Shown: in pieces, positions 12,087 through 13,335 of the stretch
How the letters are laid out: the number at the start of each line of letters is the position of its first letter
Numbering within the stretch: the first letter of the stretch is position 1
From: Mesorhizobium sp. J428
GTDB taxonomy: Bacteria; Pseudomonadota; Alphaproteobacteria; Rhizobiales; Rhizobiaceae
Assembly: GCF_024699925.1 (NCBI RefSeq)
Contig: NZ_JAJOMX010000001.1
Coordinates: 5,060,001-5,124,000 of the forward strand
DNA: 64,000 bases
Direction: 5' to 3'
Notes under the pieces: model-generated
Database searches by the model: none
What the model was told of the DNA's origin: nothing
What the model saw: only the letters and a program-made list of their open reading frames with translations
Position numbers and translations under genes: made by a program

Positions 12087-12251
12087 GGATCTCCCCAAGT
12101 TTCGTTCGACCTTTGACCGTCCGCAGGTATCGGCGCGATGTCGCCCGTCCGGCGGATCGCAACCGTCCCATTGCGGCGGCTTTGCGGCCGTCGGTTAACG
12201 GCCATTAATGGTGCATTGCACAATATGCATTGCTGCCATGCAACATTTGCC

Positions 12252-12281
12252 CTTTGAACCGGAGCCGAACGCACCTATTTC
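12252..12281 (+). promoter_or_regulatory. Possible RpoH-type promoter upstream of DUF1127
   Basis: TTTGAA at 12253-12258 is followed after 14 bp by ACCTATTT (12273-12280), resembling the CTTGAA and CCCCATNT elements of sigma-32 promoters. The spacing is right but the -10 match is imperfect. It stands about 50 bp before the DUF1127 start. The idea that a heat-shock-type sigma factor drives this unit is drawn from related Rhodobacter loci. Confidence 0.35.
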
Positions 12282-12332
12282 TGGTTCGTAACAAAGACAG
12301 ACGAATACGAAAAAGAAGAAACGAGCACTGAA

Positions 12333-12473
12333 ATGAACATCATCCGCAACTACCGCAACTGGCGTCGCTACCGGGAAACCGTGTCCGAGCTGAACCGCCT
12401 GTCGAACCGCGAACTCACCGATCTCGGCATTTCCCGCAGCGACATCCCCTTCGTCGCGCGCAAGTCGATCTGA
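12333..12473 (+). CDS. DUF1127 small protein
   Basis: 46-residue basic protein MNIIRNYRNWRRYRETVSEL..., matching the DUF1127 pattern with 'LSNRELTDLGISRSDIPFVAR'. These small proteins are common in Rhizobiales and Rhodobacterales; some are stress-induced and linked to RNA or phosphate metabolism, but the role here is unknown. The start lies in a purine-rich leader (AAAAAGAAGAAACGAG). Directly downstream are three hairpins with CCTCCTCCC loops, the arrangement described for CcsR/cuckoo RNAs, so this ORF may be the host mRNA of processed small RNAs. Confidence 0.92.
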   Translation: MNIIRNYRNWRRYRETVSELNRLSNRELTDLGISRSDIPFVARKSI

Positions 12474-12484
12474 CGAATATAGAA

Positions 12485-12523
12485 ATCTCGCCAGGGTCTA
12501 CCTCCTCCCAGACCCTGTGAGAT
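12485..12523 (+). ncRNA. CcsR/cuckoo-like hairpin 1 (CCUCCUCCC loop)
   Basis: Perfect 8-bp stem CAGGGTCT/AGACCCTG (12492-12499 with 12510-12517) closed by loop ACCTCCTCCC. An outer stem ATCTC/GAGAT extends it. It begins 12 nt after the DUF1127 stop. The loop is complementary to Shine-Dalgarno sequences, as in the DUF1127-linked CcsR small RNAs of Rhodobacter. Confidence 0.75.
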
Positions 12524-12525
12524 AC

Positions 12526-12557
12526 GGCCGGAGTTTACCTCCTCCCAAACGACGGCC
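12526..12557 (+). ncRNA. CcsR/cuckoo-like hairpin 2 (CCUCCUCCC loop)
   Basis: Stem GGCCG/CGGCC, a tandem GA/GA internal mismatch, then GTTT/AAAC, closed by the same 10-nt loop ACCTCCTCCC at 12537-12546. The stems differ entirely in sequence from hairpins 1 and 3 while the loop is identical, which indicates selection on the loop and on pairing. Confidence 0.75.
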
Positions 12558-12563
12558 ACCGAG

Positions 12564-12605
12564 ACACCCGCCGGACCTCCTCCCCCGGCGGGTGTTTTCG
12601 TTTCC
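12564..12605 (+). ncRNA. CcsR/cuckoo-like hairpin 3 and terminator
   Basis: Perfect 11-bp stem ACACCCGCCGG/CCGGCGGGTGT (12564-12574 with 12585-12595) around loop ACCTCCTCCC (12575-12584), followed by TTTTCGTTT. It doubles as a rho-independent terminator for the DUF1127 unit, so the array probably ends here. Confidence 0.78.
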
Positions 12606-12643
12606 GGAGGAAAGCTCCCGAATTTCGTACGCAGACGGGCCGC

Positions 12644-13252
12644 CTAGCGCTCGCCCATCACGCCCCGTGACTTCCACTGGTCGAGCGGCATGATGTCCGG
12701 CCTGCCGCCCATTGGCTCATACCAGCTGTCCACCGCCCATCTCGTCCCGCCCTGTTCGGAAAGCACCGCGGTGGAATGAGGATAGCGGCCGTCCACGAAC
12801 ATGCCCCGCGAGACGTTGGATTCGACACGGTGGTGCCGGATCAGGCCCCTCCCCTGGAGATAGAGCATCAGGGTGCGGGTGTTGGTCGATTCGTCGATGC
12901 AATCCATCTGGCCCATGCGACCCGACTGGGCGATGGTGGACTTGGCAGTATCACGCACGCCGATCGCCTGGCCGGCGCGGGTCTCGAAATAGGCGACCGC
13001 CGAGCCGATTGCCTGGCGCTCCGCGTTCGCGGAGCCTTTTCCGCCGGCCATGATCGACGCGAAGCGGTTCGCGTCCGCCGAAGTCAGGGCGAGCGTCGTG
13101 CGGTTGCGGCAATCGAAGCCGTGGCACACGGAAAGCTTCGAGACCGTGGTCTCCTTCTTTACCGCCGAATAGTTCGAAGAGGTTGAGACACATCCCGCCG
13201 CCAGCGGCATTGTGAGGGCGAGGATGGCGAACAAGCTGAATCTGTGCTGCAT
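12644..13252 (-). CDS. Hypothetical lipoprotein
   Basis: I do not recognise the family. The ATG at 13252 gives 202 residues with a lipoprotein signal peptide ending in the lipobox LAAGC, so the mature protein starts at Cys 21 and is membrane anchored. The mature part contains two cysteines in '[10 protein letters not shown]', one in '[10 protein letters not shown]', and a conserved-looking C-terminus '[23 protein letters not shown]'. It is divergent from trmFO with about 80 bp between starts. Orthologues are likely in Rhizobiales as a conserved hypothetical. Confidence 0.82.
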
Positions 13253-13335
13253 GCCGCGCAGACTATTCGGCCCTCTCGACGCACGCAATCCGCGAGACGT
13301 TGTGTTTTGCGCCCTCCGCGACTATTCCACTCTCC

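Follow-up and report, generated by a model that had tools for sequence, protein, structure and literature searches.

An ar14-family anti-Shine-Dalgarno RNA follows a DUF1127 gene with a VtlR/LsrB-type promoter module in Mesorhizobium sp. J428

RNAs of the ar14 family carry three hairpins with identical anti-Shine-Dalgarno motifs (CCUCCUCCC) on divergent stems (PMC10746234, PMC3927594, PMC7143759), and the number of hairpin modules varies within the family (PMC3927594). According to the available text of these reports, NfeR1 is 123 nt long and is controlled by LsrB, for which a TGCA-N6-GCAT site is reported at the NfeR1 promoter; its three loops are redundant and silence ntrB at the translation initiation region (PMC10746234). 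Predicted NfeR1 targets are mostly transport genes, and in Sinorhizobium meliloti one of six copies was detected by northern blot (PMC7143759). Short DUF1127 genes associated with CcsR-like RNAs define the CIN1 locus (PMC10253847), and in Rhodobacter sphaeroides CcsR1-4 are processed from a 3' UTR, with cleavage by RNase E (PMC8307010). DUF1127 genes are also controlled by VtlR (PMC12595884, PMC7486931), whose box, GCAT-N3-TG-N3-T, is described as established for B. abortus and proposed for A. tumefaciens; the same paper gives the gene order trxB-vtlR-abcR for A. tumefaciens and reports species differences in the VtlR/LsrB circuit (PMC7486931). As far as the accessible portions of these papers extend, the family, its architecture, loop motif and module-number variation, its mechanism, the DUF1127 association, and VtlR-DUF1127 and LsrB-NfeR1 control are thus already in print. 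We add that in the DUF1127-ar14 unit a VtlR/LsrB-type module of conserved spacing precedes the DUF1127 gene, and none stands before the RNA itself. No work joining VtlR/LsrB-controlled DUF1127 genes with ar14/cuckoo RNAs was found in the open-licence literature as far as its text was available; the primary cuckoo and CcaF1 papers may contain such a link.

In the 64-kb stretch of DNA analysed here (the window, whose positions are used below), a frame of 46 codons (46 aa) matches DUF1127 well above the domain cut-off (23.3 bits; E 2.9e-17) and is followed, about 10 nt past its stop codon, by an RNA of three hairpins (Table 1), the order that the first-pass annotation had read from the letters. 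All three hairpins share the loop ACCTCCTCCC, and the core stems measure 8 bp, 9 bp broken by two mismatches, and 11 bp, as had also been noticed; folding lengthens stem 1 to 14 pairs, and the interruption in hairpin 2 is an A.G/G.A tandem in the sequence. The 12474-12606 segment folds into the three hairpins at -60.1 kcal/mol (z = -7.2), equalled by none of 200 shuffles, and the window has a single set of three CCTCCTCCC motifs 20-45 nt apart, with no such set in any of 100 dinucleotide shuffles; chance hairpins were discounted on these two results. The T-run that had been described after the third hairpin is present, but it is weak, short and broken (TTTTCGTTT), and a simple terminator scan, limited to loops of 8 nt or less, called none. 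The convergent neighbour at 12644-13288 (-) is a frame of 214 aa that begins like a lipoprotein and matched nothing in Pfam or NCBIfam at E <= 0.001.

Table 1. Features of the DUF1127-ar14 locus (window positions).
Feature	Position	Strand	Evidence
LsrB/VtlR-type box region	12217..12243	+	exact matches to forms in PMC10746234, PMC7486931 (available text)
-35-like CTTTGAA (12252-12258) and -10-like CTATTT (12275-12280)	12252..12280	+	-10 spacing to box
DUF1127 small-protein gene	12333..12473	+	PF06568, 62.6 bits
A/T-rich linker, putative processing site	12474..12484	+	base composition after stop
ar14 small RNA, whole match	12481..12600	+	RF02344, 89 bits, cut-off 58.8, model 1-123 of 123
Hairpin 1, loop 12500-12509	12485..12523	+	folding
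Hairpin 2, loop 12537-12546, interrupted stem	12526..12557	+	folding
Hairpin 3, loop 12575-12584, 11-bp core stem, likely terminator	12560..12600	+	folding

Judged by its sequence, the RNA is a real, functional-looking and already classified small RNA. The first-pass annotation had likened it to CcsR and cuckoo RNAs, and a covariance-model search (cmscan) separated the two families. The match to the full Rfam ar14 model exceeds the gathering score, so the cuckoo-type guess holds and the RNA belongs to the published NfeR1/cuckoo family and is not new. The CcsR part of the guess fared less well: CcsR1 (RF02791) returned an E of 4.6e-8 in the 601-base search, yet at 39.1 bits against a cut-off of 65.3 membership was rejected, and ar14 is the nearer family. 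Matches to RNAI and anti-hemB (E 0.24 and 0.92) were below their cut-offs and were likewise set aside. Small RNAs of the ar14 family are about 115-125 nt in size. Along with its score, the window RNA has the three CCUCCUCCC-loop hairpins of the family and stems that diverge but remain paired among relatives, and the complementarity of its loop to Shine-Dalgarno regions, already remarked upon, agrees with the anti-Shine-Dalgarno motif in the available text of the ar14 reports. A short DUF1127 gene with same-strand CCUCCUCCC hairpins directly after it is also what defines a CIN1 locus in PMC10253847, and the window locus has this arrangement.

Mesorhizobium is or was placed in the Phyllobacteriaceae, across which comparison of the locus had been suggested. 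We retrieved 80 named loci, the best of 576 confirmed stretches, with an alignment of 12 DUF1127 proteins whose rows came from DUF1127 genes near ar14 matches. At least one downstream motif (at most one mismatch) flanked by arms that reach a pairing energy of -10 kcal/mol was present in 79/80 of these loci, a figure that describes this DUF1127 clade and not all DUF1127 genes, since the rows were drawn near ar14 and the loci are the best 80 of 576. Three or more paired sites were found in 60 of the best 80 (range 0 to 11); the loci are related and some are near duplicates (e.g. L246 and L248), so that such counts are not independent events. In the same best 80 of 576, the exact motif was absent from the first 900 nt (mostly 600-1500 nt before the gene), and neither strand had it anywhere outside the 900 nt after the gene. 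The Brucella- or Ochrobactrum-titled loci (12 among the best 80 of 576) all have at least three downstream motifs.

Loops are constant while stems change with compensation, the pattern that had been proposed as a sign of functional RNA. For 247 distinct hairpins from the best 80 of 576 loci, selected by protein and without an energy filter, a hairpin's own arms paired at a mean of -17.9 kcal/mol vs -8.0 for swapped arms, and -10 kcal/mol was reached by 233/247 own pairs vs 25% of swapped ones. An earlier arm-swap test on the ar14 matches (92/140, those with three motifs at no more than one mismatch) gave -15.0, -16.3 and -22.5 for the own arms of hairpins 1-3 vs -6.3, -6.9 and -12.9 when swapped, in a set biased to paired stems because it was chosen by the covariance model. 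The loop is exact at 263/316 sites downstream of the best 80 of 576 DUF1127 genes, with varying stems; among the 140 ar14 matches, all three motifs are exact in 57 and none in 6. Conservation of the full loop stood only in part. The base before the motif, A at all three window loops, changes from relative to relative (T 129, A 92, C 21, G 5 at 247 distinct sites in the best 80 of 576 loci), so the conserved core is CCTCCTCCC. An alignment of the window and 29/40 loci was dropped for pair counting, since neither the size of the loop nor the register of the stem is the same from locus to locus: a single fixed register left many cells unpaired, 134/247 at the first pair. The arm-swap test on the 247 hairpins, which needs no register, took its place.

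Four ar14 copies exceed the cut-off in the window's own genome: the window copy, C1:1390420-1390534 (-), C1:3504213-3504321 (+) and C5:137848-137965 (+). Across the genome and 60 relatives, ar14 was matched at E <= 0.001 in 45/61 and over the cut-off in 37/61. With the 120 strongest DUF1127 matches as reference, 54/140 ar14 matches have a same-strand DUF1127 gene in the 300 nt before them, 12/140 have a same-strand one in the 300 nt after them, and 0/140 have one on the opposite strand at that distance; in the wider set, ar14 follows within 300 nt after 45 of the 120 strongest DUF1127 matches, of which more exist. The pair is kept in all seven genomes of the genus examined (own plus six), and the nearest named DUF1127 loci among the best 80 of 576, those of Mesorhizobium sp. 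L-8-3, Mesorhizobium soli JCM 19897 and a Mesorhizobium MAG, encode proteins 96 to 98% identical. Array length differs much between relatives: four tandem ar14 units stand behind a single DUF1127 gene in G026:C23 (L137) and again in G033:C45 (L153), and G029:C12 (L143) has a tandem row of five matches.

Several side observations concern the copies themselves. The copy at C1:3504213-3504321 starts 15 nt past the stop of a phasin gene (L277:952-1398; TIGR01985, 122.9 bits), and a hand-made pattern found a phasin-like ending upstream of 10/140 ar14 matches, making this a second recurring 3' UTR setting; the open-licence literature held nothing relevant on a phasin-ar14 link. The copy at C5:137848-137965, without a VtlR-type module, is on a 203-kb contig that is perhaps a plasmid. 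Two records titled Bacillus subtilis and Xylophilus sp. (L204 and L233) contain the alphaproteobacterial DUF1127-hairpin locus; wrong labelling or a mixed assembly is the probable cause.

Upstream of the DUF1127 gene, the promoter resembles a target of LsrB/VtlR, a known host-interaction regulator. TGCA-CAATAT-GCAT (12217-12230) is an exact TGCA-N6-GCAT, and GCAT-TGC-TG-CCA-T (12227-12239), which overlaps it, is an exact VtlR box; a palindrome of the form TTGC-N6-GCAA, TTGC-TGCCAT-GCAA (12230-12243), overlaps the neighbouring boxes. From the start of the VtlR box to the end of the -10-like hexamer is 54 nt, so that the published box stands at promoter distance, and transcription would be expected to start near 12287. 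We defined a module as a VtlR box with at most two mismatches plus a -10-like hexamer ending 51-57 nt from the box start, and scanned 81 DUF1127 upstream regions (window plus the best 80 of 576). The module is present in 71/81, at exactly 54 nt in 68, vs 4% in shuffles; among these 71 matches (window plus best 80 of 576), the box is exact in 26, has one mismatch in 9 and two in 36. TGCA-N6-GCAT is exact in 29 of the same 81 regions and within one mismatch in 73, with 0.2% and 8% in shuffles. Shuffles in both scans keep base composition only, and for the module real background windows elsewhere in the same loci were added, 38/1583 of which have it, none with an exact box. In the window, the module with an exact box has a sole instance, with one other place at one mismatch; the box alone (GCATNNNTGNNNTGCA) occurs once, and at least once in 12/100 window shuffles, and is not rare. 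At two of the ten DUF1127 regions that miss the module (window plus best 80 of 576), L210 and L236, the end of another DUF1127 gene lies directly upstream; none of the Brucella/Ochrobactrum-titled loci is among the misses.

The genome also offers a candidate regulator. Its sole match to ar15 (RF02345, AbcR-type), C1:431971-432083, lies beside a LysR-family gene (L276:4219-5142 (-)) that follows a thioredoxin reductase gene (trxB; L276:5149-6243 (-)), the same arrangement as trxB-vtlR-abcR in A. tumefaciens (PMC7486931). The LysR gene passed no NCBIfam cut-off among 25 of the 55 matching models, and for that reason it is a candidate LsrB/VtlR by gene order only.

We consider it probable that the window has one ar14-family, trans-acting RNA in the 3' UTR of a DUF1127 gene, on a shared transcript activated by LsrB/VtlR, with loops that block Shine-Dalgarno sites. 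The LysR-type regulator would bind and activate a single promoter upstream of DUF1127, giving a joint DUF1127-ar14 transcript; the RNA would be released by cleavage in the A/T-rich linker that follows the stop codon, or act within the mRNA, or both, and would end at hairpin 3. Its three equivalent loops would pair with the Shine-Dalgarno sequences of target mRNAs, including those of transport genes, and block ribosome loading. In the 55/80 loci with a first motif within 55 nt (best 80 of 576), the 12 nt that follow the stop average 58% A/T, vs 38% for the final 60 nt of coding sequence, a composition that would favour cutting by RNase E of the kind reported in R. sphaeroides. The own genome has GGGAGGAGG-N3-12-ATG 15 times vs 4 for the reversed pattern, and 8/15 of these sites open frames of at least 245 codons; three of the eight, picked as transport-like and scanned, all have transport domains (TctC, SBP_bac_5, BPD_transp_2), and such frames are candidate targets only. 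Counting against LsrB/VtlR activation, the module is absent at 10/81 DUF1127 regions (window plus best 80 of 576) and at 68/86 ar14 matches without an upstream DUF1127 gene (among the matches listed, two of them own-genome copies). The two box mismatches in 36 of the 71 module matches, the reported species differences in the regulatory circuit, the assignment of the LysR gene by position and the negative terminator and sigma-70 scans also weigh against this reading. Moreover, with one of six S. meliloti copies seen on a northern blot, the window copy may be silent.

It is unlikely that the RNA is instead an ar14 gene in its own right, transcribed from a promoter within DUF1127 or immediately behind it, and that the linkage reflects a co-travelling gene pair. 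NfeR1 itself is transcribed separately, from a sigma-70 promoter of its own in the available text of PMC10746234, and among the matches listed the module stands directly before the RNA in 18/86 ar14 matches without an upstream DUF1127 gene; the stand-alone copy at C1:1390420 has it at the same 54-nt spacing with two box mismatches, while C1:3504213 lacks it. Where DUF1127 is upstream, however, the module is found in 0/54 of the 130-nt stretches before the RNA (among the matches listed), and a family-type promoter directly before the window RNA was rejected on this ground; from the letters alone, no promoter of the VtlR/LsrB-module type appears to precede the RNA directly. A generic sigma-70 scan likewise found no site at 12100-12700, a result that concerns sigma-70 and module types and leaves room for other promoter types. 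The shared module suggests that some stand-alone and DUF1127-linked copies have one promoter kind, with DUF1127 lying between promoter and RNA in the latter.

We give slightly less credence still to a CcsR/CIN1-type stress operon, driven by RpoH, in which the DUF1127 protein, like CcaF1, binds and matures the RNA. The promoter elements of the window are not far from what we take to be the RpoH type, and this was counted in its favour, as was the E of the CcsR1 model. The same order of DUF1127 and CCUCCUCCC hairpins is reported for CIN1 (PMC10253847, available text), but the CcsR1 score falls short of its cut-off, the unit has three hairpins vs two in the CcsR1 model, the conserved upstream element is a VtlR box, and whether other DUF1127 proteins bind RNA is in dispute in the accessible part of PMC12501420. 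Very improbable is a purely cis-acting role, in which the hairpins would only terminate the DUF1127 mRNA and stabilise its 3' end; their start so close to the stop codon and the strong final hairpin would fit it, but neither function needs a constant CCTCCTCCC loop on varying stems, and stand-alone ar14 copies exist.

The promoter result joins VtlR/LsrB and its small DUF1127 targets with the ar14/cuckoo anti-Shine-Dalgarno RNAs. On the joint-transcript reading, deletion or overexpression of such a DUF1127 gene together with its 3' end should alter a small RNA as well, and the reading bears on the question, raised in the available text of PMC7486931, of whether VtlR-activated atu1667 works as protein or as RNA. 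More tentatively, and as a proposal that we hold at a little under even confidence, the short DUF1127 genes of VtlR/LsrB regulons in this part of the Hyphomicrobiales may have a dual output, a small protein and a 3' anti-Shine-Dalgarno hairpin array of variable length. If so, the RNA would account for some of the phosphate, fucose and biofilm phenotypes ascribed to the DUF1127 proteins and for some of the large VtlR regulon that is indirect, and a transcript's supply of loops would be tuned by the length of its array, which reaches 11 paired hairpins in the best 80 of 576 loci.

Among the known systems, AbcR1/AbcR2 (ar15, RF02345) are likewise anti-Shine-Dalgarno small RNAs linked to LsrB/VtlR with transport targets, but they form a different family, and the one ar15 match of this genome lies at C1:431971-432083. 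The VtlR/LsrB-activated DUF1127 genes, atu1667 and three in Brucella, resemble the window gene in being short and preceded by a VtlR-type box; they are treated as protein genes, with atu1667 called 'unknown' as to protein or RNA, and the available text of PMC7486931 and PMC12595884 mentions no 3' anti-Shine-Dalgarno RNA. In CcsR1-4/ccaF1 of R. sphaeroides CIN1, a short DUF1127 gene also precedes CCUCCUCCC hairpin RNAs, probably on one transcript, but four RNAs follow an RpoHI/RpoHII promoter there (PMC10253847, available text), whereas the window has one three-hairpin unit, below the CcsR1 cut-off, and a VtlR-type box. Closest is NfeR1 (Smr14C2/SmelC397) of S. meliloti, the ar14 founder and a member of the cuckoo family, which the window RNA resembles in its full-length model match over the cut-off, its three CCUCCUCCC-loop hairpins on divergent, paired stems and its several copies per genome. 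NfeR1 has its own promoter directly upstream, whereas the window copy stands behind DUF1127, with the module upstream of that gene.
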